The translations under genes were made by a program, and so were the position numbers. 64,000 nt of DNA, taken from Hymenobacter sp. PAMC 26628. GTDB lineage: Bacteria; Bacteroidota; Bacteroidia; Cytophagales; Hymenobacteraceae. The notes under the pieces were generated by a model that saw only the letters and a program-made list of their open reading frames with translations, did no database searches and was not told the DNA's origin. Below, one piece after another: positions 896 to 22,690 of this stretch (position 1 is its first letter; each line of letters opens with the position of its first letter). The stretch lies in the NCBI RefSeq assembly GCF_001562275.1, contig NZ_CP014304.1, forward strand, positions 3,782,001-3,846,000, written 5' to 3'.

Positions 896-3800
896 TTGCC
901 CGCTATATCCCACGTTCTCCGTTGCTGCGCTGCGCTTTGGCGGCGGTCGGGCACTGCCGGCGGGGCCCTGCGCGGGCTGGCACTGGCCTGGCTGCTGCTG
1001 AGCGCCGGCACGGCCCTGGCCCAGCGCGCCTGCACGGCCAACCCCGACTCCATCCCCGGGCAGCGGCCGGGCAGCGCGCCCATGCCCCCGGTGCGCGTCA
1101 TTTCGCCCGACCCCACCCTGCCCCAGGGGCCCCCGCCGCCCGGCACTACCAACCCCGGCCAGCACAGCACCCCCGGCACGTCGCGCAAGCCCGTGGCCGG
1201 CATCCCCGACAGCGTGCTGGTGAAGCAGGCCCAGCAGGATTCCATCAAGCTGGCCGCCAAGCCCAAGGGGCCCATCGAAACCACGGTGCACTACGTGGCC
1301 AAGGATTCGATTCAATTCGACGTGACCCGCAAGGAGGCCAAGCTCTACAACAAGGCCGACGTGAACTACGGCGCCATGGACCTAAAGGCGGCCCTGATTA
1401 CCATTGACTACGCCGCCCACGTGATGACGGCCGAGGGCCGGCGCGACTCGGTGAAGCACAAAGTGGTGGACAAGCCCGTGTTCAAGGACGGGGCGGGGCA
1501 GTACGCGGCGGGCAAAATTGCTTACAACTTCCAGAGCAAGCGCGGCAAGATTACCGAAACCGTAACCCAGCAGGGCGAGGGCTACGTGAGCGCCCAGAGC
1601 ATTAAAAAGGCCGCCAACAACGACCTGTTTGGGGTACGCGGCCGCTATACCACCTGCAACCTGGAACACCCGCACTTCTACATTCAGGCCACCAAGATGA
1701 AGGTGATTCCGGGCGACAAGGTGGTGACGGGGCCCTTCAACCTGGTGATTGGCGGCGTGCCCACGCCGCTGGGCTTTCTGTTCGGCTTCTTCCCCATGCC
1801 CAACAAAAGCCGGGGCTCGGGCGTCATCATCCCCACCTTCGGGCAGGCCCAGGACCGGGGCTACTACCTCAGCAACGGCGGCTACTACTTTGCGCCCAAC
1901 GACAACATCGGCGTGCGCCTCACCGGCGACATCTACGCCGGCAACGCCCAGACCTTCGGGGGCTACGGCGTCACGGCCGACGTGAGCTACCTCAAGCGCT
2001 ATCAGTACCAGGGCAACTTCAACTTCCGCTACACCAACCGCCCGGGCATCCAAATCCTGTCCTCGGCCTCACTCAACACCAGCCTCGACTACGTGAAGCC
2101 GCCCTCGGCCCAAACGTTCTGGATCAGCTGGAGCCACACGCCGGTGGCGCGGCCCGGCGGGGGGCGCTTCTCGGCCAGCGTGCAGGCCGGCAGCAGCAGC
2201 TACAACCGCACCAACAGCTTATCATCGCGCGCATTTCTTTCACCCACGTTCAGCTCCAGCGTGTCGTACACGAAGCAGCTGCGCTACCTGCCCATCAACT
2301 ACAGCCTGAAGCTGAGCCAGAGCCAGAACACCCAAACCGGCGTCATGGCCTTCACCCTGCCCGACGTGAGCGTGGGCGTGGCCCGGCAGTACCCCTACCA
2401 GTGGTTCAAGCTGAAGGCGCGGCCGTTCTACGACCAGATCAGCATCAGCTACAACCTGGTGGCCCAGAACCAGATTACCAACACCGTGGCCGCCCGTACC
2501 CTCGACGGCAGCGTGCCGCTGCTGGGCGGCTCCACGGCCGGCAGCACCCTGCCGATTAGCTTTAAAAACATTGGCTCGCTGCTGCGCAACGCCCAAAACG
2601 GCATGCAGCACCAATTCGGCATCTCGCTGGGTTCCTACACCTACAAGTTCCTGCACATCAGCCCGGGCTTCAACTACGGCGAAACCTGGTACGCCCGAAG
2701 CTTGGACTACAAGTATGTAGACCGGGCCCAAGCCGTGCGCGTCGACACTATACCGGGCTTCAGCCGGGCCTACTCGTATTCGGCCAGCGTCAGCCTGAAC
2801 ACCACGTTCTACGGCACGTTGGTGCGCAAGGGCACCCACAAAATCCAGGCCCTGCGCCACAAAGTCACGCCCAGCCTCAACTACAGCTACTCGCCCGACC
2901 TAACCCGGGGCTCGGCATTTCAAAAAACGTACTTCGCCCAGCTCAACGCCAACGGCACCGACGTTGTTCGGGACGCTGCCGGCAACCAAATTGCTGGCCT
3001 GCGCGACGCTACCGGGGTGTTTCTCGACCCGCGCAACTACTCACGCTACCAGGGCTTCCTGTACGGGGCCCCCAGCTCGGGCGCGGTGAGCCAGATTGGC
3101 TTTTCGCTGCAAAACGCGGTGGAAATGAAGGTGCGCGACGACAAGGACACCACGGGCACTAACCCGGTGAAAAAAGTGAGCCTAATTGACGGGCTGGACT
3201 TCAACGGCTCCTACAATTTCCTGGCCCCGGCCTTCAACCTGTCGCCCCTTTCGGTGTCGTTCCGCACGCAGGTGGCCCGCAAGCTCAGCCTCATTTCCAA
3301 CGCCAGCTTCGAGGCCTACCAGCGCGATAGCTCCGGGGCCATGCTCAACCGCTTCCTGTTTCAGCAGCCCGGCAGCCGCAAGCTGCTGCGCCTCTCGTCG
3401 GCCAGCTTCACCACCAGCTACGCCTTCAACCCCGTGTCGGGCAAGAAGAAAAGCGTGGTGCCGCGCCAGGTGGCCCCGGCCAACGACCCCACCCTGGGTG
3501 GCGTGGGGCCCCCAGCCATGTACGCCGACTACGTAGACTTCGACATTCCGTGGGAGTTAGCCCTGAGCTACACCGCCGGCTACACCACCAACGCCATTCC
3601 CCTCCAGCAGCGCGTCCTCAACGCCCGCCTGCTGGCCGCCAACCCGCTGCTGGCCCTGTCCACGCTCAGCGCCACGGGCAGCGTCAAGCTTACCGAAAAC
3701 CTGAAGCTGACCTACACCACGGGCTACGACTTCCACAGCAGCCAGGCGTCGCTCACCACCATCAGCTTTTTCCGCGACCTGCACTGCTGGCAGGTGGCCG

Positions 3801-3978: not shown

Positions 3979-4794
3979 ATGTCGCAGCACAAAGAAATCA
4001 AGCTCGTCACCACCCACCAGATGCTGGCCATGAAGCAGCGCGGAGAGAAAATCTCCATGCTTACGGCCTACGACTACTCGATGGGCCAGATTCTGGACGG
4101 GGCCGGCATCGACGTGCTGCTCGTGGGCGACTCGGCCTCCAACGTGATGGCCGGCCACGAAACCACCCTGCCCATCACCCTCGACCAGATGATTTACCAC
4201 GCCCAGAGCGTGGTGCGCGGCGTGAAGCGCGCCTTTGTGGTGGTCGATTTGCCGTTTGGCTCCTACCAGGGCAACAGCTCGGAGGCCCTGCGCTCGGCCA
4301 TCCGCATCATGAAGGAGGGCGGCGGCCACGGTGTGAAGCTCGAAGGCGGCGCCGAAATCAAGGATTCCATCACCCGCATCCTCACCGCGGGCATCCCCGT
4401 GATGGGCCACCTCGGCCTCACGCCCCAGAGCATCTACAAGTTCGGCACCTACTCGGTGCGCGCCAAGGAAGACGACGAGGCCCAAAAGCTGCTCGAAGAC
4501 GCCCGCCTGCTTCAGGAAATCGGCTGCTTCGCGCTGGTACTCGAAAAAATTCCGGCCGCCCTGGCCAAGCGCGTGGCCGAGGAGCTCACCATCCCCGTCA
4601 TCGGCATCGGCGCGGGCCCCGACGTGGACGGCCAGGTGCTGGTAGTGCACGACCTGCTGGGCATCACCAAGGAATTCAAGCCCCGCTTTCTGCGCCGCTA
4701 CGCCGAGCTGCACGACATCATGACCGAAGCCGTGCAGCACTACGTGGCCGATGTGAAAAGCCGCGACTTCCCCAGCAAAGAGGAAGGCTACTAG
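3979..4794 (+). CDS. panB: 3-methyl-2-oxobutanoate hydroxymethyltransferase
   Basis: First committed step of pantothenate synthesis: transfers a hydroxymethyl group from 5,10-methylenetetrahydrofolate to alpha-ketoisovalerate, giving ketopantoate. The 271-residue length is normal for PanB. Visible family motifs are SMLTAYDYS near the N-terminus, [11 protein letters not shown] (metal-binding aspartate), [18 protein letters not shown] and [16 protein letters not shown] with HDLLGI. The start ATG is followed by [16 protein letters not shown] weak -7-like CACCTTTG lies at 3939-3946. A strong terminator hairpin follows at 4831, so this seems a single-gene unit. Confidence 0.96.
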
Positions 4795-4912: not shown

Positions 4913-4929
4913 ACTTTGTTAAACAAAGT
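4913..4929. promoter_or_regulatory. 17-bp palindromic operator upstream of creD
   Basis: ACTTTG-TTAAA-CAAAGT, a dyad with 6-bp arms and a 5-bp centre that ends 20 bases before the creD ATG. The left arm belongs to TTACTTTG, a near-match to the -7 element TAnnTTTG, so a bound protein should block RNA polymerase. The same geometry recurs at 21565-21581 and 22674-22690. Confidence 0.6.
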
Positions 4930-4949: not shown

Positions 4950-6413
4950 ATGACCTCGCCCACCGCCTACGACCGCCTCAATGCCTGGATGAGTAACTCG
5001 GTCACGCTGAAGCTAATCAGCATCGGCATCTTGCTGCTGTTGCTGCTCATCCCGTCGAGCATGGTGCAGGGCCTGATCACGGAGCGGGCCGAGAACCGCG
5101 ACGCGGCCACCGCCGAAATCAGCGGCCAGTGGGGCGGGCCGCAACTGGTGCTGGGGCCCGTGCTCGTGCTGCCTTACACCGCGCGCAGCACCGACGACAA
5201 GGGCCGCGTGAGCGAAACCACGCAGTACCTGAGCCTGCTGCCCGACACGCTGGCCACCACCGGCACGCTGGTGCCCGAGCGGCGGCACCGCGGCATCTAC
5301 GAGGCCGTGGTGTACCGGGCGGGGCTACACGTACAAGGTGCCTTCCAGGCCCCGCCGCTGGCCGACGTGGGCGTAGCCGCCGGGGCGGTGCGCTGGGCCG
5401 AAGCATTCGTAACCCTGGGCATTTCCGACATGAAGGGCATCCGCAACGGCTTGGTGCTGCGCTGGGACGGCCAGGCCCGCAGCTTCGAGCCGGGCGTGCC
5501 CAGCGCCAGCGTGCTGCCGGTGGGCACGGCCCCCAGCACCACCACCCAGGTTACAGCGGTGGTGAACGAGCGCGGCCGCCTGTCCAGGGCCCCCACCGCA
5601 GACGATGGCGCAACAGGCGGCCCAACCGCCAACGGCCTCAACACGCTGGTGCCCGTGCCCGACGCCGCGGCGCTGGTCCGCCGCCACACCTTTGCCTTCG
5701 ACCTCGACCTGAACGGCAGCAATGGCCTGCTGGTGGCGCCGCTGGGCCGCCAAACCACGCTGCACCTGAGCGCGCCCTGGGCCGACCCGAGCTTTATCGG
5801 CGCCTTTCTGCCGGCCCGCCACACCGTGGGGCCCCGGCAGTTCACGGCCGATTGGCAGGTGCTGCACCTCAACCGCAGCTACCCCCAGCACTGGCGCACC
5901 GACGGCGAGCGGCCCAACGTCGACGCGTCGACTTTTGGCGTGCGCTTGCTGGTGCCCGTCAACGAGTACCTGAAAACCATGCGCGCCGCCAAGTACGCGC
6001 TGCTGCCGCTCACGCTCACGTTCCTGGTGTTCTTCTTCGTGGAAGTGCTGAACCGCCGCCGTATTCACCCGTTCCAATACATTCTGGTGGGGCTGGCGCT
6101 GGTCATTTTTTACGTATTGCTGCTGGCCCTGTCCGAACAAATGCCCTTTGATGCGGCGTACGGCCTGTCCGCGGCGGTAATCGTGGGCCTGGTGGCGGCC
6201 TACGCGGCGGCGAGTTTCCGGCAGCGCCGCCCCGCGGCCGCCACCGCCGGCGTACTGGCGCTGGTGTACGGGTTTCTGTTCGTGGTGCTGCAATTGCAGG
6301 ATTACGCGCTGCTGGTGGGCAGCCTGGGTTTGGTGGTGGTGCTGGGCGCGGTCATGTTCCTTTCGCGCAACGTGGACTGGTACCAGCCGGCGGCTCCGCC
6401 GGCCGCCACCTAA
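4950..6413 (+). CDS. creD: Inner membrane protein CreD
   Basis: CreD family protein of 487 residues, associated with cell-envelope integrity in other bacteria; its molecular activity is unknown. It has an N-terminal membrane anchor (LKLISIGILLLLLLIPSSMV), then the family sequence QGLITERAENRDAATAEISG, a large periplasmic region to about residue 345, and a C-terminal block of about six membrane segments (from about KYALLPLTLTFLVFFFVEVL). The ATG lies directly downstream of a palindrome that is shared with two other membrane-protein genes at 21.5 and 22.7 kb. In other Bacteroidota creD is often found near a small winged-helix regulator; here that regulator is 17 kb away. Confidence 0.93.
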   Translation: MTSPTAYDRLNAWMSNSVTLKLISIGILLLLLLIPSSMVQGLITERAENRDAATAEISGQWGGPQLVLGPVLVLPYTARSTDDKGRVSETTQYLSLLPDTLATTGTLVPERRHRGIYEAVVYRAGLHVQGAFQAPPLADVGVAAGAVRWAEAFVTLGISDMKGIRNGLVLRWDGQARSFEPGVPSASVLPVGTAPSTTTQVTAVVNERGRLSRAPTADDGATGGPTANGLNTLVPVPDAAALVRRHTFAFDLDLNGSNGLLVAPLGRQTTLHLSAPWADPSFIGAFLPARHTVGPRQFTADWQVLHLNRSYPQHWRTDGERPNVDASTFGVRLLVPVNEYLKTMRAAKYALLPLTLTFLVFFFVEVLNRRRIHPFQYILVGLALVIFYVLLLALSEQMPFDAAYGLSAAVIVGLVAAYAAASFRQRRPAAATAGVLALVYGFLFVVLQLQDYALLVGSLGLVVVLGAVMFLSRNVDWYQPAAPPAAT

Positions 6414-15232: not shown

Positions 15233-17617
15233 CTACCGCACGCTGTCCGGCACGCCGTTGCCGTTCATGCGCTCCAAGAGGTTGTCGGCGGCGATGGTAT
15301 CTACAGCGGCTTCGCGGCGGCGGGGCTCGCTGGGGGACACGCAGGTGTACTTTTTGTTGATTTTGACCGTGGGGGCGGGGAAGTGGCCGTAGTCGTAGCC
15401 TAGGGATTTGTCCTGGTAAATCTTCTCCATGTACTTGCCGTAGATGGGCAGGGCCGTGCGGCCGCCCTCGCCCTGCTGCGAGCCCACGAAGTGGATGCTG
15501 CGGTCTTCGCCGCCCACCCACACGCCGGTCACGAGGTCTTTGGTGAGGCCCATGTACCAGCCGTCGGAGTAGTTGGAGGTGGTGCCGGTTTTGCCCCCAA
15601 TTTGGTTGTCCTTGTGCCAGAGGTCGTAGTCCCACAGGGCCTGCGAAGTGCCGCCGGGCTCCTCCATGCCGCCGCGCAGCATGTAGGTCATCAGCCAAGC
15701 CGTTTCGGGCGAAATGGCGCGGCGCTGCACGGGGTCGAACTGCTGGATGACGTTGCCGTGGCGGTCTTCGATGCGGGTGATGAGGCGGGGCTGCGACCGG
15801 AAGCCCGTGTTCAGAAACGTGCTGTAGGCGTCCACCATTTCGTACACGCTCACGTCGCCAGCCGAGCCCAGGCCGATGCTCGGCACCGGCAGCAACGGGC
15901 TGGTAATGCCCACCTTGCGGGCGTACACAGCCACTTTGTCCCAGCCCACCAGCTCCGTCAGCTGGGCCGTGACGGAGTTGACGGAGCGGGCCATGGCGTG
16001 GCGAAGCGTCATGTTGATGCCCGTGTATTCGCGGGTCACGTTGTCGGGCTGCCACTCCATGGGCTTGCCGTTCTCGACGTACTTAATCGTCACGCGCTGG
16101 TCCCGAATCCGGTCGCAGGGCGAGTAGCCGTTGTCGAGGGCCGTGAGGTACACGAAAGGCTTGAAGGTGGAGCCGGCCTGGCGGCGGCCTTGCTTCACGT
16201 GGTCGTACTGGAAAAAGCGGTAGTCCAGGCCCCCCACCCAGGCCTTAATGGAGCCCGTATAGGGGTCCATCGTCATCATGCCGGCCTGCAAAAAGTGCTT
16301 GTAATACGCCAGCGAATCAAGCGACGACATCACCAGTGTGGTGTCGCCGTCGCCGTGCTTCCAGGTGAACACCTTCATCGGGCGCTTCAGGTTCAGGGCC
16401 GCTTCGATCTGGGCCTGGTTGCCGTGGTAGCGGTTGTGGAGGGTTTTGTAGACCTCGGTGCGCTTGATTTGGGTATTGATAAAATCTGGAATTTCCTCGC
16501 CTTTTTCGTCCACCCAGGGGTTTTGGTGGCGGTTGCGCCAGAAGCTGTCGAAGTTGCCCTGCAAGGCCTTCATGCGCTCGTGCAGGGCCACCTCGGCGTG
16601 GTCCTGCATCCGCGAGTCGAGGGTAGTGTAGATGCGCAGCCCGTCGCGGTACAGGTCCAGGTCGTGGTCGTCGCACCACTTGGTGACGACCTGGCCGATG
16701 GCCCCGCGGAAGTAGTTGTCGGGCCCGTCGATGTGGCGCTCCACGTGGTAGTCCAACGCCACGGGCTGCGCTTGCAGGGCCCCTACTTCGCTGGCTTTGA
16801 GGATGCCGGCCTGGCCCATGCGCTCCAGCACCACGTTGCGGCGGCGGCGGGCGGCTTCGGGGTGGAAGCGCGGGTTGTAAGCCGTGGGGTTGTTCAGCAC
16901 GCCCACCAGCATGGCCGCTTGCACCGCCGACAGGCTGTCGGGCGAGGTGTTGAAGTACGTTTTGGCCGCCACCTTGATGCCGTAGGAGTTCGAGCCGTAC
17001 TCCACCGTGTTCAGGTACATGCGCAGGATTTCCTCCTTCGTGTAGCGGCGCTCCAGCTCCACGGCCGTCAGCCACTCCTTGGTTTTGCTGATGATGGTGC
17101 TCACGCCGGCGATGTGGCCGAGGCCGCCGCGGGTTTCGCCGCGCCGGGTTTTGTACAAGTTTTTGGCCAGCTGCTGGGTGAGGGTCGAGCCGCCGCGTTT
17201 TTCGCCGCGCGCGGCCGCCGCCAGGGCCCCCAGCAGGGCTGGGCCGTCGATGCCGGCGTGGTCGTAGAAGCGCACGTCTTCCGTCGCCACCAGGGCCTTG
17301 ATGAGCACCGGCGAAATCTTGCTCAGCGGCACCGGCGAGCGATTTTCGCGGAAGTATTTACCCATCAGCACCCCGTCGGAGGTATACAGCTCAGATGCTT
17401 GCTCTACTTTGGGATCTTCCAGCTCGGCCAAGCTCGGCGACTTCCCAAACAGGAACAAGAAGTTGGTGCTGACCAGGATAGGGTAAACCAGGAAGAGCAC
17501 CAGGCTCAGCCCAAACAGCACCCAGGCCCACCGCACCAGGCGGCGCGGCCAGCGGCCAGAAGGGGTGGGTAAGCGCGCCGGCGAGGCGGGTGGGAGCGGC
17601 GGGGAAGGAACAGCCAT
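15233..17617 (-). CDS. Class A penicillin-binding protein (PBP1A type)
   Basis: Bifunctional peptidoglycan synthase: a glycosyltransferase that polymerises lipid II and a transpeptidase that cross-links stems. 794 residues. After a Pro-rich cytoplasmic tail comes one membrane anchor (AWVLFGLSLVLFLVYPILVS). The GT51 domain contains ATEDVRFYDHAGIDGPALLG and RGGSTLTQQLAKNLYKTRRG. The transpeptidase domain has the three active-site motifs: STFK near residue 482, SVN near 545 and KTGTT near 675. The C-terminal tail is short and charged. It is the start of a long minus-strand gene run, and probably the last gene transcribed in any operon with the small genes upstream. Confidence 0.96.
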   Translation of the reverse strand: MAVPSPPLPPASPARLPTPSGRWPRRLVRWAWVLFGLSLVLFLVYPILVSTNFLFLFGKSPSLAELEDPKVEQASELYTSDGVLMGKYFRENRSPVPLSKISPVLIKALVATEDVRFYDHAGIDGPALLGALAAAARGEKRGGSTLTQQLAKNLYKTRRGETRGGLGHIAGVSTIISKTKEWLTAVELERRYTKEEILRMYLNTVEYGSNSYGIKVAAKTYFNTSPDSLSAVQAAMLVGVLNNPTAYNPRFHPEAARRRRNVVLERMGQAGILKASEVGALQAQPVALDYHVERHIDGPDNYFRGAIGQVVTKWCDDHDLDLYRDGLRIYTTLDSRMQDHAEVALHERMKALQGNFDSFWRNRHQNPWVDEKGEEIPDFINTQIKRTEVYKTLHNRYHGNQAQIEAALNLKRPMKVFTWKHGDGDTTLVMSSLDSLAYYKHFLQAGMMTMDPYTGSIKAWVGGLDYRFFQYDHVKQGRRQAGSTFKPFVYLTALDNGYSPCDRIRDQRVTIKYVENGKPMEWQPDNVTREYTGINMTLRHAMARSVNSVTAQLTELVGWDKVAVYARKVGITSPLLPVPSIGLGSAGDVSVYEMVDAYSTFLNTGFRSQPRLITRIEDRHGNVIQQFDPVQRRAISPETAWLMTYMLRGGMEEPGGTSQALWDYDLWHKDNQIGGKTGTTSNYSDGWYMGLTKDLVTGVWVGGEDRSIHFVGSQQGEGGRTALPIYGKYMEKIYQDKSLGYDYGHFPAPTVKINKKYTCVSPSEPRRREAAVDTIAADNLLERMNGNGVPDSVR

Positions 17618-17701: not shown

Positions 17702-18130
17702 CTACGCCAGGCGCGGGCCCGGGCCCGCGGGGGCCGCCGGCCGGCGGCGGCGCGGCCAGCGCCACGCCAACTCGGCCAGGGCCAGCAGGCTGAGGCCGAT
17801 GCCCAGGCAGTGGCTGAGGTGCAGGCGCCGCGCCGGCAGCGGGGCCCCCAGGTCGTGGTACAGCAGCACGGCCCACAACTCGTCGGCCAGCGTGAGCACC
17901 CAGGCGGCCACGGCCAGCACCCGGCTGGCCCGCCCGCCGGCCAGGTACAGGTGCAGCAGGTACAGCCCTAGCCCGGGCAGGGCCGATACCAGCACCAACG
18001 GGGCCTCCAGGGCCAGCGGCAGCACCAGCAGCAGGAAGCTCAGGGTTTCTTTGGCGGCCTGGGCAGCGGCCAGCGCCCGGCCCAGGCGCGAGAGTTTGGG
18101 CGGGGTGGGCAGCGAAAGCGGAGGAAGCAT
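17702..18130 (-). CDS. Small hydrophobic membrane protein
   Basis: 142 residues from the ATG at 18130 (MLPPLSLPTPPKLSRLGRAL). Four hydrophobic stretches are visible, for example TLSFLLLVLPLALEAPLVLV, ALPGLGLYLLHLYLAGG, VLAVAAWVLTLADELWAVLL and HCLGIGLSLLALAELAW, so it is a multi-pass inner membrane protein. The C-terminus is Arg/Pro-rich (WRWPRRRRPAAPAGPGPRLA). No family recognised. It is the last of several small membrane-protein genes on the minus strand between 17.7 and 19.9 kb, possibly co-transcribed with them; spacing to the next gene upstream is 53 bases. Confidence 0.6.
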   Translation of the reverse strand: MLPPLSLPTPPKLSRLGRALAAAQAAKETLSFLLLVLPLALEAPLVLVSALPGLGLYLLHLYLAGGRASRVLAVAAWVLTLADELWAVLLYHDLGAPLPARRLHLSHCLGIGLSLLALAELAWRWPRRRRPAAPAGPGPRLA

Positions 18131-18183: not shown

Positions 18184-18576
18184 TTAGTAGCGCCGCAGCG
18201 GCATGCGGCCGCCCTGGCAACGCCAGGCCAGCAACACCAGCAGGGTCCCCTTGAGCGAGTCGAGCACTAGGTTGTCGGGCTTGCCGAAAACGACGTAGAT
18301 CCCCACGCCAATGCCAATCCACCAGGCCCCGAGCAGGTAGCACAGGGCCGCAAAATGCGGCCGCCGCTGCCACACCCAGGCAAAAGCCTGTATCGCCACC
18401 GCCGACACCAACAGCAGAAACCAACCCGTGAGGTAGCCCAAAAAAGCCGTATTGGGCCCGTATTTTACCCCAAACTTGCCCAGCGTGAAGGCCGGCGCAA
18501 AAAAGGCCCCGCCCGTGAGCGCCAGCTCCAGCACAATGGCCACCAACAGCAGCAGCAATAGGAAAAAGCGGGCCAT
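18184..18576 (-). CDS. Small multi-pass membrane protein
   Basis: 130 residues from ATG (MARFFLLLLLLVAIVLELAL). Four predicted membrane segments: residues 3-25, TAFLGYLTGWFLLLVSAVAI, FAALCYLLGAWWIGIGVGIY and a C-terminal NLVLDSLKGTLLVLLAW. It ends with a basic, Cys-containing tail (RCQGGRMPLRRY). The family was not recognised. The open frame extends to 18660, but the extension is not hydrophobic and has no homology that I can see. It lies in the same-strand run of small membrane genes downstream of the Coq4-like gene. Confidence 0.65.
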   Translation of the reverse strand: MARFFLLLLLLVAIVLELALTGGAFFAPAFTLGKFGVKYGPNTAFLGYLTGWFLLLVSAVAIQAFAWVWQRRPHFAALCYLLGAWWIGIGVGIYVVFGKPDNLVLDSLKGTLLVLLAWRCQGGRMPLRRY

Positions 18577-18713
18577 GGGTGGGAGATGGTTAAGGAAGAG
18601 CGACCGGGGCCCCTGCTCCGCGGCGGAGCCCGAATCGGCCGGCGCGGCGAAACTAACCAAATCGCGCCAAAAAATCAGCCGGCTTGCACGTTAGCCGCCC
18701 GCACCCTGGCGCT

Positions 18714-19073
18714 TCACCCGCCGGCCAGCAGCAACGCCAGCCCCAGGCAGCACAGCGCTTCCAGCACGAGCAACCCAACGGCCACCGCCCGGGCCCCTAT
18801 TTCGAACAATATGCCCAGCCACCGGGGCCCCGCGTAGGCCGCCGGCCAGCGCCACAGCACCCACGCCATCTGCGGGCCGGCCGCTACCAGGGCCCCCAGC
18901 AGCATTGCGGCGCTCACGAGCCAGGCGGGGCCCGGGCGGGTCCATAGCTCGCGCTCAAAAACCAGGCTGAGCACGGCCAGCGCCGCCACGGCGGCCGTGG
19001 CCCACAGCCGCGGCGGCACCACCGGCCACGGCGGCAGCCAGTGCGCAGAGCGAGGAGTAGCGAGTGGTTTCAT
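18714..19073 (-). CDS. Small multi-pass membrane protein
   Basis: 119 residues, starting MKPLATPRSAHWLPPWPVVP. Three hydrophobic stretches: LWATAAVAALAVLSLVF, LVSAAMLLGALVAAGPQMAW and a long C-terminal IGARAVAVGLLVLEALCCLG. No family recognised. It lies 39 bases downstream of the Coq4-like gene on the same strand, so co-transcription is likely. GC-rich codon use is normal for the window. An alternative internal start is possible, because the first 20 residues are not conserved-looking. Confidence 0.55.
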   Translation of the reverse strand: MKPLATPRSAHWLPPWPVVPPRLWATAAVAALAVLSLVFERELWTRPGPAWLVSAAMLLGALVAAGPQMAWVLWRWPAAYAGPRWLGILFEIGARAVAVGLLVLEALCCLGLALLLAGG

Positions 19074-19112: not shown

Positions 19113-19625
19113 CTAGCTTCTGGCAGCGCCCACGCGCAGGCCGATAGATTGGCGCAGATAGGCAAGGTCGTGGGCTACATAATCGGCCAGCTTCCAGTGG
19201 AACACGGGCGGCACCCGGCGGCCGCGGCGGTAGTGGCGCAGCAGCCCGGGCCACCCCTCGGGCGTGAGCACGGCGAAGAGCAAAAACCCCACGCAGGTGA
19301 CGAACCAGTCGCCGTTGCCTAGCGTGAAAGCCTTGAGCTTCAGCTCGTCCTCGGGCGTCATGTCGTAGCCCAGCAACACGTGCTTCAGGTCGTGGTCTTC
19401 GTAGTGCGGAATCAGTTGCAGGCCGTGGCGGGCCAGCACGTCGGCCACGCCGCGGCCCAAGGTACCGGGCGGCAGGCTTTGCAATTCGGCTAGCCGGATG
19501 CCTGCCGGCTCGCGCCCGTACAGCCGCTGGAAAATGGGGATGAGGAACGACGTCCGGGCGTGCACGATGATTTTGCGGGCCAGCACCTGGTAGGCATTCA
19601 GCTTGGTTGCGCGAACGAATGGCAT
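19113..19625 (-). CDS. Coq4-like protein
   Basis: 170 residues without signal peptide or clear membrane segment. The Coq4 metal-binding signature HDxxH-x11-E is present exactly (HDLKHVLLGYDMTPEDE: His78, Asp79, His82, Glu94). The region before it also fits the family (LQSLPPGTLGRGVADVLARH), as does the following LKLKAFTLGNGD. Coq4 acts in ubiquinone synthesis in mitochondria and proteobacteria, and recent work links it to ring modification. Bacteroidota generally use menaquinone, so the role here must differ or involve another quinone or lipid. Neighbours are small membrane proteins of unknown function. Assignment rests on the motif and its flanks. Confidence 0.75.
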   Translation of the reverse strand: MPFVRATKLNAYQVLARKIIVHARTSFLIPIFQRLYGREPAGIRLAELQSLPPGTLGRGVADVLARHGLQLIPHYEDHDLKHVLLGYDMTPEDELKLKAFTLGNGDWFVTCVGFLLFAVLTPEGWPGLLRHYRRGRRVPPVFHWKLADYVAHDLAYLRQSIGLRVGAARS

Positions 19626-19655
19626 GATTATAAAGGCTTTGAACGAACTGTTTTC

Positions 19656-19874
19656 CTATTGCTCCGACCACAGCAGCATGGTGCGCACCAGGGCCGCGAG
19701 CAGCAGGGCCCCCAGCGCTACCGCGCCCGGCAGCACCCCGCGCAGCAGCCGCGCCCGCCGCAGGCCGGGCGTAGCCGCCCGGTCGCGCCACGAAAGCAAA
19801 AACCCGAAAGTGGCCAGGTCGCCGAAGCAAGTCACCAGGCACAGCGCCAAACAGGCAAATTGTTTGATTGTCAT
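19656..19874 (-). CDS. Small membrane protein upstream of Coq4-like gene
   Basis: 72 residues with two hydrophobic segments (CLALCLVTCFGDLATFGFLL and RGVLPGAVALGALLLAALV) joined by a basic loop (WRDRAATPGLRRARLLR). No family recognised. The ATG follows an AT-rich stretch (about 19870-19905) that is a plausible promoter region for the group of minus-strand genes from here to 17702. The 30-base gap to the Coq4-like gene suggests one operon. Confidence 0.55.
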   Translation of the reverse strand: MTIKQFACLALCLVTCFGDLATFGFLLSWRDRAATPGLRRARLLRGVLPGAVALGALLLAALVRTMLLWSEQ

Positions 19875-19930: not shown

Positions 19931-21541
19931 TTAGCGCAGGGCTTGCGCGGCCTGCCAGTCGGCGTAGTTCCAGCCCTGCCAGCCGGCGTAGGTGCGTTGG
20001 CGCTGGCGCCAGGCGGCCACCGTGGCATCGAGGCGGCGCTGGGCATCGGCGGCGCTGACGACCACGGCCCCGCTGTAGCTCTCACTGGTGAGCTGCGGAA
20101 TGCTATTCAGCCGGGCGCGGTCGGCTAGCAGCTCGGGCAGGGCGCGGCCGGGCAGGTCGAGCAGGAAGCCGACATCGACGGTTTGGAAGCGCAGCTGGAG
20201 GTTGTAGCGGGCCATCCACACTTCCCAATTGCCGGCCGCCAGCACCAGCAGCACCGCGTAGGCGGCCAGCGCGTTGCGGCGCACGAGGAAGTACACGGAG
20301 CGGCGCTGCCAGATTTTGAGCAGCATGGTGCCCAGCCCAAACAGCGTGAGCACCAGGAAGAAGCATACGCCCAGGCGCTTGTAAGCCAAGCCCCGGTGCT
20401 CGATGTAGTAGTAGTTGCGCAGGCCCACCGACACGGCCAGCACCGCATTTTGCAGCACCCAAGCCGTGGCCCCAGCGCGCAGCCACGGCAGCCCAGGACC
20501 GTAGAAGTTCAGGTTGCGCCGGAAAAACCACAGCACCAGCGCCATCGCCAGCAAAATACTGAATATGAGCACGTACGTACCCTCGTGCACGAACTGCGCC
20601 AGGTCGAAGCCCGGCGCGGGCACGAAGCCAAACCACAGCCAGTTGATGTCGATAATATTCACCGCCAGCAGCAGCGCGTTCACCAGCCCGAGCACGGCCA
20701 CGGCCATCAGCCACTCCTTGCGCAGGCCCAGGGCCCCAAACGCGCGCGCCCGAAAATCGGGCCGCCGCACGCCCAGCGACGCCACCCGGTCGCGCTGCCG
20801 CCGCACAAACTCGCCCAGCCGCGACTCGTGGTCGGCGAAGTAGTACACTGGCACGGCCACCAGGGCCCCCGCCGTCAGCACGTAGCCCAGCCCCAGAAAC
20901 AGCAAGTGGCCCAGCGTCAAATCGGGCCAGAGGCGCGCCAGCCACGCGCCCACCGCCGCCAGCGCCCGCCCGCTTAGGTCGGCGTAGCGCGGGTTGGCCA
21001 CCGCAAACAGCCCGTGGAACACCGCCAGCACCGCCAGGGGCCCCAACAGCAGCCGTCCGTAGTACCAACTGCGGCGTGCTCCCGCCCCGCTCAGCAGCCG
21101 CCCTTGCCAGGCGCGGGGCACCGCCAGCGCCGCCCGCAGCGTGCCGCCGGCAGCCGTCAGCAGCGCGTAGGCCAGCAGCCGCAGGTGGGGCTGGTTGGCG
21201 TAGCCCAGCAGCAGCAGCAGCGACGCCGCACTGGCCAGCACCGCCACCCCCGAGCCGTACACCGCCGCCATCACCCCGCTAAACAGGCTGCCCGCCGCCG
21301 CCAGCCAAAACAGCCCCGCCCGCCGCGCCGGTGCGTGGCGCGGCCGCAGCCCCACCTGGGCCCCCACCACAAATAGACTGTAAACGAGCACGTTCAGGCC
21401 CGTTTTCTCGGCCCAAAACAGCCAGTTGAACAGCAGCAGGCCCAGCGGCAGCAGCAGCTTCTGGGCGGCGGAGAGCGGGACCGCAGCCGGCCGGGGGCTG
21501 ACGTCGCGCCAAAGGGTTTCATATGTTTGGGGCAATTCCAT
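19931..21541 (-). CDS. DUF4173/DUF4153-like membrane protein
   Basis: 536 residues with about twelve hydrophobic segments and a soluble C-terminal tail of about 90 residues. The sequences ALVLWFFRRNLNFYGPGLPW and YYYIEHRGLAYKRLGVCFFL, with ALAAYAVLLVLAAGNWEVWM, match my memory of the DUF4173 (DUF4153-related) family in Bacteroidota. Molecular function is unknown. The C-terminal soluble part contains NSIPQLTSESYSGAVVVSAA. The ATG is 24 bases from a palindrome (21565-21581) shared with creD and with the membrane-protein/regulator operon upstream, which suggests co-regulation in an envelope-related regulon. Confidence 0.8.
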   Translation of the reverse strand: MELPQTYETLWRDVSPRPAAVPLSAAQKLLLPLGLLLFNWLFWAEKTGLNVLVYSLFVVGAQVGLRPRHAPARRAGLFWLAAAGSLFSGVMAAVYGSGVAVLASAASLLLLLGYANQPHLRLLAYALLTAAGGTLRAALAVPRAWQGRLLSGAGARRSWYYGRLLLGPLAVLAVFHGLFAVANPRYADLSGRALAAVGAWLARLWPDLTLGHLLFLGLGYVLTAGALVAVPVYYFADHESRLGEFVRRQRDRVASLGVRRPDFRARAFGALGLRKEWLMAVAVLGLVNALLLAVNIIDINWLWFGFVPAPGFDLAQFVHEGTYVLIFSILLAMALVLWFFRRNLNFYGPGLPWLRAGATAWVLQNAVLAVSVGLRNYYYIEHRGLAYKRLGVCFFLVLTLFGLGTMLLKIWQRRSVYFLVRRNALAAYAVLLVLAAGNWEVWMARYNLQLRFQTVDVGFLLDLPGRALPELLADRARLNSIPQLTSESYSGAVVVSAADAQRRLDATVAAWRQRQRTYAGWQGWNYADWQAAQALR

Positions 21542-21564: not shown

Positions 21565-21581
21565 ACTTTGTATTTCAAAGT
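21565..21581. promoter_or_regulatory. 17-bp palindromic operator upstream of the DUF4173-like gene
   Basis: ACTTTG-TATTT-CAAAGT, with the same 6-5-6 geometry as the site before creD. Read on the minus strand it begins TTACTTTG, a near -7 element, 24 bases before the gene's ATG. Confidence 0.6.
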
Positions 21582-21681: not shown

Positions 21682-21978
21682 CTAACCGGGGCGCAGCAGC
21701 TTCTCCAGGGCTTCCAAATGCTGCTGGAAGGCGGCGCGGCCCTCGGCGGTGGCGGTGTAAGTGGTGTTGGGCTTTTTGCCGATGAACTGCTTGCTGACCA
21801 GCACATAGCCGGCTTTTTCGAGGGCGGCCACGTGGCTGGCGAGGTTGCCATCGGTGAGGTCGAGCACTTCTTTTAAGTCGTTGAAGCTGACGGCGTCGGT
21901 GGCCAAAAGCACGGCCATGACGCCCAGCCGCACGCGGTGGTCAAATGCTTTGTTGAGGGTGTGGATAAGGTGCTTCAC
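21682..21978 (-). CDS. Winged-helix transcriptional regulator
   Basis: 98 residues from the GTG that overlaps the upstream gene's stop in a GTGA arrangement. The whole protein is one winged-helix domain: LNKAFDHRVRLGVMAVLLAT (helix 1), SFNDLKEVLDLTDGNLASHV (helix-turn-helix), AALEKAGYVLVSKQFIGKKP (recognition and wing start), TTYTATAEGRAAFQQHLEAL (C-terminal dimerisation helix). This is the HTH_27/ArsR-like family often found near creD in Bacteroidota. It has no ligand or sensor domain. The best target candidates are the three palindromes at 4913, 21565 and 22674; the last is its own operon promoter, so autoregulation is likely. Confidence 0.88.
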   Translation of the reverse strand: MKHLIHTLNKAFDHRVRLGVMAVLLATDAVSFNDLKEVLDLTDGNLASHVAALEKAGYVLVSKQFIGKKPNTTYTATAEGRAAFQQHLEALEKLLRPG

Positions 21979-22664
21979 CGGCCCAATACGGATGCGGCGG
22001 GGGCCCCGGCCGGGCCGGGCCGCTCGTAGCGCTGGTACATCCGCAGGCCGTAGCCGATGTGGCCCAGCCCAAAGCCCAGCGCAAAAAACGCTACGCCCCA
22101 GCCCGGCAGCAGCATCGCCACCAGCCCCAGCCCGAGCTGCGTGAGCCCCAGCCAACGGATTTCGTCGAAGGTGTACTTGCTGGCGTTCAGCAGCGCCAGG
22201 CCGTAAAACACGAGCAGGCCGGGCACCACCAGGCCCGCGTCGCCGCCCAGGTACAGGCGCAGGCAAAACAGCCCGCCCGCTGCCAGCGGCAGCGCCAAGG
22301 CCACCAGCAACCGCCGCGTCAGGCTGTTCCACAGCGGCTGGCCAGGGCCCTGCTGCTGCTGCCGGCGCCGCGTGAAAAACCAGGCCACGAGCAGCGCCGC
22401 CGCTACCATCGCAGCCGCCAGCAGCAGCAGAAACGGCAGCGCCGCCTGCCGCTCTTCGGCGGTGCTCGCCAGCAGGTGCTGGTAGCCGCTGGCGCCGTAT
22501 TCGCTGGGGTAGTGGCCCTGCAAGTAGAAGTGGCCGGCCGCCGTGCCCAGCAGCGCCACCACGCCCGCCCCCACCCCGCTCAGGCCGGAAAGCGACAAAA
22601 AGCGCGAGCTGCGCTCCATAATGGCGCGGATTTCGGTGAGTTGGGCTAAGGGGTCGAGCTGCAT
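21975..22664 (-). CDS. Membrane protein coupled to the winged-helix regulator
   Basis: 229 residues from ATG (MQLDPLAQLTEIRAIMERSS). A short amphipathic N-terminal helix is followed by about six membrane segments arranged in pairs, for example LSLSGLSGVGAGVVALLGTA, ALPFLLLLAAAMVAAALLVA, LLVALALPLAAGGLFCLRLY and WGVAFFALGFGLGHIGYGL. The sequence LDPLAQLTEIRAIMERSSRF followed by LSGLSGV recurs in Bacteroidota proteins found beside this type of regulator. It could transmit a membrane signal to the regulator, but that is inference. Its stop overlaps the regulator's start, so the two are translationally coupled. The palindrome at 22674-22690 is 10 bases upstream. Confidence 0.8.
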   Translation of the reverse strand: MQLDPLAQLTEIRAIMERSSRFLSLSGLSGVGAGVVALLGTAAGHFYLQGHYPSEYGASGYQHLLASTAEERQAALPFLLLLAAAMVAAALLVAWFFTRRRQQQQGPGQPLWNSLTRRLLVALALPLAAGGLFCLRLYLGGDAGLVVPGLLVFYGLALLNASKYTFDEIRWLGLTQLGLGLVAMLLPGWGVAFFALGFGLGHIGYGLRMYQRYERPGPAGAPAASVLGR

Positions 22665-22673
22665 ACACGAAGT

Positions 22674-22690
22674 GCTTTGTGATGCAAAGT
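22674..22690. promoter_or_regulatory. 17-bp palindromic operator upstream of the regulator operon
   Basis: GCTTTG-TGATG-CAAAGT, 10 bases before the ATG at 22664. On the minus strand it begins TAACTTTG, a perfect TAnnTTTG -7 element, so the operator and promoter core coincide. Third copy of the dyad also seen at 4913 and 21565. Confidence 0.6.

Follow-up and report, generated by a model that had tools for sequence, protein, structure and literature searches.

A short Coq4 homologue in Hymenobacter belongs to a palindrome-bearing set of membrane protein genes

The function of Coq4 has been disputed for decades, and COQ4 was long regarded as a scaffold that assembles the CoQ synthome. Reconstructed ancestral animal COQ4 removes C1 of the CoQ precursor by a Zn-dependent decarboxylation for which the motif is required (PMC7615680). 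Eukaryotic COQ4, the C1 decarboxylase of CoQ synthesis, has this metal motif in common with the protein studied here, whose host in contrast shows, in searches for COQ7 and UbiG, no sign of a ubiquinone pathway. The cyanobacterial Coq4 proteins Alr8543 (6e12) and Npun02000094 (3msq) have the fold, the HDxxH-x11-E signature and the C-terminal region in common with our protein. At the motif, 6e12 carries Mg and oleic acid; geranylgeranyl monophosphate was present in an earlier model (PMC9774615). A second described protein that bears on this locus is CreD of the CreBC regulon, an envelope protein; its loss in Stenotrophomonas led to envelope integrity defects and a sigma-E response (PMC4689548).

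We analyzed a stretch of 64,000 nucleotides from Hymenobacter sp. PAMC 26628 (NZ_CP014304.1, positions 3,782,001 to 3,846,000), hereafter the window. An earlier note, made from the letters alone, claimed the exact Coq4 signature HDxxH-x11-E for the gene at 19113, and the translation bears this out with H78, D79, H82 and E94:

19113 to 19625, minus strand: Coq4-like protein, 170 aa, short form without the C-terminal TM hairpin, assigned by homology, fold and dN/dS
19344 to 19394, minus strand: codons of the metal motif H78-D79-x2-H82-x11-E94, placed from the translation and conserved among relatives

Searched alone, the window protein matched the Coq4 HMM (PF05019) with E 6e-5; its score of 22.9 bits equals the gathering cut-off of 22.9, and the match is borderline on single-sequence evidence. 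The gene was not reported by a six-frame search of the genome with PF05019 at E<=0.001, and an NCBIfam search of the protein at E<=10 gave no match. At E<=10, PF05019 matched all homologues in alignment A1 (13/13, best 1.9e-7). A phmmer search against the PDB placed 3msq at E 0.0033 and 6e12 at E 0.19; with a family profile of 62 sequences these values became 3.9e-9 and 1e-5, and the sole further row had E 3. Ten plasmid-borne Coq4 homologues served as references (seven cyanobacterial and three alphaproteobacterial; eight annotated as Coq4 and two as 'hypothetical'), and hhalign aligned the family with them over 127 columns (prob 98.8, E 6.6e-17). The AlphaFold model of the protein (pLDDT 86.5, pTM 0.80) was used for a structure search, in which chains of 6e12 and 3msq were the only matches at E<=0.001. 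Their structural Z scores were 12.4 (rmsd 3.0, 134 aligned) and 10.7 (rmsd 3.9, 136 aligned), and the next row had 2.8. Because family profile, hhalign and fold agree, Coq4 homology is secure, and the window ORF is confirmed as a Coq4 homologue that belongs to the Coq4 fold superfamily, PF05019 being taken widely. The earlier note had named a weak HMM match or a fold other than that of Coq4 as evidence against its reading: the single-sequence match was marginal, but the family-profile match was clear and the predicted model did match the Coq4 structures, so that neither objection fully came true.

Several features set the window protein apart from described Coq4 proteins. It is about 30 residues shorter than 6e12 and 3msq ahead of the first aligned block, and it lacks a pre-motif loop of about 16 residues that holds an Asp in 10/10 references. 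Directly ahead of the motif Glu, 82/104 family rows of our tree have Asp or Glu (D-E in the window), vs. Gly in 10/10 references. After this Glu the references read A-Q (7/10 at each place), whereas the family and the window read G-N-G (103, 104, and 99 of 104 rows). P122 is present in 103/104 rows. Conservation of the motif itself in 104/104 rows holds by construction, because only rows with the complete motif had entered the tree. One branch of this tree (SH-aLRT 89) has all 104 family rows on one side and the 10 references on the other. Judged from these alignments, the window protein and its relatives are a distinct subfamily.

That the host is menaquinone-type, as the earlier note had assumed, agrees with the genome (completeness 99.99%). 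MenD was found at 381.6 bits vs. a cut-off of 244.2, a value exceeded in 7/14 control genomes. A search for COQ7 found none (found in 1/14 controls), and a search for UbiG gave 11 weaker methyltransferase-type matches with 0 over the cut-off (over it in 2/14 controls). This gene content supports a host that makes menaquinone and not ubiquinone. A ubiquinone role of the Coq4-like protein was rejected, since COQ7 was not found and UbiG stayed below its cut-off. A true COQ4 of ubiquinone synthesis, acquired recently, is accordingly scarcely credible: the Pfam family name and the GO term 'ubiquinone biosynthetic process', assigned automatically to a relative in Aureibacter, would fit it, but MenD is present, the two ubiquinone searches came out as above, the SH-aLRT 89 branch parts the references from the family, the reference-invariant Asp loop is missing, and the G-E and A-Q residues are mostly missing as well.

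The presence of MenD fits another reading, that of a menaquinone-side enzyme in which the Coq4 relative would modify or decarboxylate a naphthoquinone precursor; COQ4 chemistry, a C1 decarboxylation of a prenylated ring (PMC7615680), fits it too. The menaquinone route is a core need, yet only 31/150 same-family genomes had a Coq4-like match at E<=0.001, of which three or more, among the weakest, are antisense noise and others come from different branches. Moreover, no men or ubi gene occurs among the annotated conserved neighbours, the partners being membrane and envelope proteins, and we consider this reading improbable. None of the annotated conserved neighbours points to a pigment or to another quinone. 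Three of the weak family matches (L028-L030) were dropped as frames antisense to another gene, that of L028 being a lumazine-synthase-like frame recognised by eye.

A contig scan confirmed 110 relatives, of which 80 were kept. All 80 have Bacteroidota titles except L050, L063, and L089, and the Coq4-like family is Bacteroidota-wide. The full HDxxH-x11-E motif is present in the ORFs of 79/80. Two architectures were found: short proteins of about 160-175 aa, the clade of the window included, and long, TM-tailed proteins of about 235-245 aa with an extra C-terminal hydrophobic hairpin, which form the closest sister branch and carry the same motif and GNG. In the tree the short, mostly linked lineages come early, and a 54-row long-type branch (support 87) is nested as sister to 16 rows made up of the Hymenobacter short clade and L078. 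The tree was built by a quick method with SH-aLRT only, 47/108 inner branches are left open and long branches were flagged; on this tree the short, C1-linked state (C1 is described below) is probably ancestral. Seven Coq4-like matches were left out, including the split pieces L083 and L095, the fragment L065, and the motif-incomplete L064 and L258, and weak matches above 1e-15, including a remnant in genome G124, were excluded as well. The tree label 'long_or_other' on L032 and L033 is due only to a contig edge and a 7-kb distance from C1.

Some individual relatives deserve mention. In-frame stops were seen in the TM-tailed genes L014, L018 (= the L095 gene), L023, and L083, which suggests repeated decay of this form; L023 is the same place as the H1 match on a Hymenobacter canadensis plasmid. 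TM-tailed proteins are near-identical across Cyclobacterium, Algicola, and several Flavobacteriaceae records (L048-L050, L052, L053, L058, L060), and this suggests recent horizontal transfer or mislabelled bins. L089 (CP034120) bears a Glaciecola amylolytica title; the places that a phylum search around its genome, G541, gave are also those found for Bacteroidota genomes, so a member of Bacteroidota may have been given the wrong label here. In L104, two Coq4-like genes (2974-3435 and 4076-4481) lie in a single C1/HTH_34 operon.

The genes around the Coq4-like gene in the window are as follows:

21975 to 22664, minus strand: C1 membrane protein with six long helices in its model; hydropathy shows five hydrophobic stretches
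21682 to 21978, minus strand: HTH_34 winged-helix regulator, 98 aa, GTG start, PF13601 E 7e-30, overlapping the C1 stop
19931 to 21541, minus strand: DUF4153 membrane protein, 536 aa, PF13687 E 8e-31, nine hydrophobic stretches
19656 to 19874, minus strand: 72-aa membrane ORF between DUF4153 and the Coq4-like gene, tblastn matches in 20 loci (own-genome copy and duplicate loci included)
18714 to 19073, minus strand: 119-aa membrane ORF, downstream of the Coq4-like gene
18184 to 18660, minus strand: 158-aa membrane ORF, downstream; listed with a TTG start, although an internal ATG is likelier
17702 to 18130, minus strand: 142-aa membrane ORF, downstream; ATG at 18130
15233 to 17617, minus strand: class A penicillin-binding protein (transglycosylase and transpeptidase), conserved locus edge in Hymenobacter, no operator
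4950 to 6413, plus strand: CreD, 487 aa, PF06123 E 5e-146, directly behind the third candidate operator (below)

DUF4153 is presumed to be the first gene of the transcription unit that holds the Coq4-like gene. Neighbours were defined by clustering of ORFs in the 80 loci and the window, and profiles were then built from the clusters. The recurrent set consists of C1 and HTH_34, followed in variable order by DUF4153 (PF13687), CreD (PF06123), DUF1361 (PF07099), DAGK (PF01219), and the Coq4-like gene; DAGK and DUF1361 were looked for in the window and not found there. The conservation of gene neighbourhood that the earlier note proposed to examine exists, and it lies upstream of the Coq4-like gene (C1, HTH_34, DUF4153), where that note had missed it. 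C1 is a protein of about 215 aa with six long helices in a model (pLDDT 85.7). No Pfam family matched it over the cut-off, and a structure search against the PDB gave no match at E<=0.001 (best 0.52), which yields no hint of what C1 does; this is an absence of match and not evidence of a new fold. In a phylum sample of 395 genomes, C1 was found in 130 and a Coq4-like match in 28, all of which carry C1. In 18 of these 28, C1 and the Coq4-like gene share contig and strand and are separated by 347-5045 bp. The HTH_34 gene follows within about 1.4 kb downstream of C1 in 52/52 C1 loci. Among Hymenobacteraceae with the window-clade gene, the latter lies 2.3-3.0 kb downstream of C1 in 10/10 genomes, one of them with a remnant (G124). 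A PADLOC search of seven locus proteins at E<=0.01 gave no match for six (Coq4-like, DUF4153, C1, and three small ORFs), and the HTH_34 protein matched Csa3 winged-helix models (E 2.7e-6); an anti-phage defence system found no support in this search.

The four small membrane protein genes of the earlier note are real as ORFs of 72, 119, 158, and 142 aa, but the last spans 17702-18130 and does not reach up to 18424. Two or more hydrophobic stretches occur in each, and tblastn found relatives of each at further loci of Hymenobacter. In seven Hymenobacter loci without a Coq4-like gene (L225-L231), relatives of the 72-aa ORF were found in 6, of the 119-aa ORF in 3, of the 158-aa ORF in 4, and of the 142-aa ORF in 4. 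The small ORFs were rejected as specific partners of the Coq4-like protein, since each also occurs in loci without it. These seven loci all kept C1, HTH_34, and DUF4153, the penicillin-binding protein was found in 6/7 (not seen in stretch L230), and the subsets of small membrane ORFs vary. In L225, the 72-aa stop is followed, 17 bases on, by an ATG in the frame of the 119-aa homologue, at the slot that the Coq4-like gene occupies in the window. Across the family sample, C1 was present in 149/150 genomes and the window-clade Coq4-like gene in 9 intact copies and 1 remnant of 150. The Coq4-like gene is dispensable or optional in Hymenobacter, being often absent where C1 is near-universal. The remnant (L242 in G124, 5754-5916) has an internal deletion and lies between DUF4153 and the penicillin-binding protein. 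Where the gene is present, dN/dS values of 0.085 vs. H. nivis, whose protein is 95% identical, and 0.15 vs. H. coccineus show that it is under purifying selection, the metal ligands included.

Upstream of genes of the set we found the palindrome CTTTG-N5-CAAAG, a candidate operator (no strand assigned), at three places in the window:

22675 to 22689: candidate operator CTTTG-N5-CAAAG, ahead of the C1-HTH_34 unit
21566 to 21580: candidate operator CTTTG-N5-CAAAG, ahead of DUF4153
4914 to 4928: third candidate operator CTTTG-N5-CAAAG, ahead of CreD

Three sites compare with 0.10 expected, and 0/100 shuffles reached three. From the end of the site to the start codon there are 10 bp at C1, 21 bp at CreD, and 24 bp at DUF4153, and because of these distances repression would be likelier than activation. 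For CreD of the window, which has the palindrome, we propose control by HTH_34 through that site. The whole genome holds 6 sites vs. 2 for a reversed control pattern. Two of them (L263 and L264 of G000) lie inside or between frames with no recognisable gene start behind and are probably due to chance, the control also giving 2. A fourth genomic palindrome (L265, C2:2235467-2235481) precedes the gene of an MPAB/Lcp-type oxygenase (PF09995), behind which comes a membrane-type ORF, and this oxygenase gene is a possible further regulon member. The half-site of the palindrome resembles a -7 promoter element of Bacteroidota, TAnnTTTG, a point against the HTH_34 binding proposed below.

The palindrome was found within 60 bp of C1 in 50/52 loci (the misses being L234 and L255). 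Within 200 bp it accompanied 21/33 matches of DUF4153, 3/13 of CreD, and 2/23 of DUF1361, and none of DAGK (0/12), HTH_34 (0/52), or the penicillin-binding protein (0/23), a distribution as expected if the palindromes head transcription units. Short Coq4-like genes, 'short' being set by match length and three duplicate loci being removed, had a site within 300 bp in 16/55 and within 4 kb upstream in 45/55, vs. 0/50 for the long type within 4 kb (Fisher test 3e-20, a value inflated by relatedness). Of the 10 short genes that missed, six are truncated or split long-branch members (L043, L045, L063, L081, L083, L095), L078 is partial, a contig end truncates L032, and the last two, L107 and L109, are true, intact short genes with neither palindrome nor C1 nearby. 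Long-type loci held one site in 872,666 bases and, except for L095 (about 5 kb off), no C1 or HTH_34.

An extended form, ACTTTG-N5-CAAAGT-N-CTT, was searched in 12 genomes chosen from the 28, namely all 8 with an unlinked short gene and 4/18 with a linked one. In these 12, C1 or the Coq4-like gene was no more than 2.5 kb away from 31/34 exact extended sites. When one mismatch was allowed, 66 sites were found vs. 27 for the reversed control, and single inexact sites therefore prove little. Where the Coq4-like gene is far from C1 or on another contig, an exact site lay within 2.1 kb of it (94-2077 bp) in 8/8 genomes (G170, G174, G317, G321, G353, G369, G463, G490), which carry one genus label (g19) and are not independent events. 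The five unlinked loci that were read (L236-L240) also had a core site 12-35 bp before the Coq4-like match. In two of the three outlying cases the extended site is followed, 30 bp on, by a membrane ORF of 96 aa; the two ORFs are similar (L280 and L291; 1186-1476, minus strand; families f4 and f6) and likely represent another regulon member. By C1-HTH_34 linkage or by the common palindrome, the Coq4-like gene belongs to the HTH_34/C1 operator set. That a gene without fixed function was simply caught, as a passenger, in a part of the locus that varies is highly improbable: presence and absence within Hymenobacter, the decayed copy in G124, the scattered places of the TM-tailed relatives, and the lone L107 and L109 would suit a passenger, but neither the low dN/dS (0.085-0.15) nor the palindrome in all eight genomes of one genus where the gene stands apart from C1 would.

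With belief and doubt about evenly balanced, we propose that the window protein, a shortened member of the Coq4 fold, depends on metal, lies peripherally at the membrane and deals with lipid or isoprenoid as part of an envelope regulon under HTH_34 control, and that it is not a ubiquinone enzyme. As to the regulation that we infer, the HTH_34 protein would bind CTTTG-N5-CAAAG as a dimer, and the regulator, its neighbour C1, and the common palindrome argue for a small autoregulated set. The set (CreD, DUF4153, DUF1361, DAGK, and Coq4-like) would remodel or protect the cell envelope. The partners of the Coq4-like gene in it are mostly inner-membrane proteins, and its product would lie on the cytoplasmic face of the inner membrane. 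As to substrate and chemistry, an isoprenoid or acyl lipid would enter the cavity that holds lipid in 6e12, and the His/Asp/His/Glu metal site would modify it by decarboxylation, hydrolysis or a similar step. Several results speak against this proposal: relatives that have lost metal ligands (L258 and L064, below), the short genes L107 and L109 outside the set, the frequent absence of the gene in Hymenobacter, and the failure to find DAGK and DUF1361 in the window. The suggestion of the earlier note that a Coq4 fold may have been repurposed for another quinone, a lipid or a pigment is partly supported, namely in homology, fold, motif and menaquinone host; repurposing fits these results, and the substrate would be a lipid.

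The main rival is a non-catalytic lipid sensor or scaffold, in which the fold would bind lipid and help to assemble the membrane proteins of the set. Relatives bind lipid (PMC9774615), the protein is small and its partners are nearly all membrane proteins. Further, in L258 a gene of the set (5414-5836) keeps its place and its GNG with the ligands replaced (QDxxR), possibly a non-catalytic form, and a long-form MAG gene (L064) reads HDxxR; metal chemistry may thus not be universal in the family. A scaffold would not need all four of His/Asp/His/Glu, however, and these are kept in 79/80 ORFs across deep divergence, for which reason we hold a purely structural role to be rather unlikely.

A narrower form of the proposed lipid-modifying role, unlikely as it stands, is that the Coq4-fold metalloprotein acts on a polyprenyl lipid carrier, e.g. 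undecaprenol, within an HTH_34/C1-controlled envelope regulon of Bacteroidota for which the literature searched gave no name. In several Chitinophagaceae and related MAGs the operon also encodes DAGK, of the undecaprenol kinase family. Were the narrower form true, the Coq4 fold would serve as an isoprenoid-lipid enzyme in general, with ubiquinone synthesis as one use.

Coq4-like labels in Bacteroidota are not new in themselves: the Aureibacter member is already labelled 'Coq4 family protein', and a Chryseobacterium genome paper carries COG5031, a Coq4-like label (PMC10710014). In the open-access literature searched, Coq4 and Bacteroidetes occur together only in that genome paper, HTH_34 had no mention, and DUF4153 is mentioned in two papers. 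Within that literature, the context of the common palindrome and a Coq4 subfamily in a non-ubiquinone host are new. The automatic ubiquinone label on such Bacteroidota proteins looks wrong, as our results suggest. A small regulon of mostly uncharacterised membrane proteins (C1, DUF4153, DUF1361) is outlined that can be tested as a unit, and a Coq4 relative tied by a palindrome to envelope genes, in a host without signs of ubiquinone, is a clean system in which to find the lipid of this fold.
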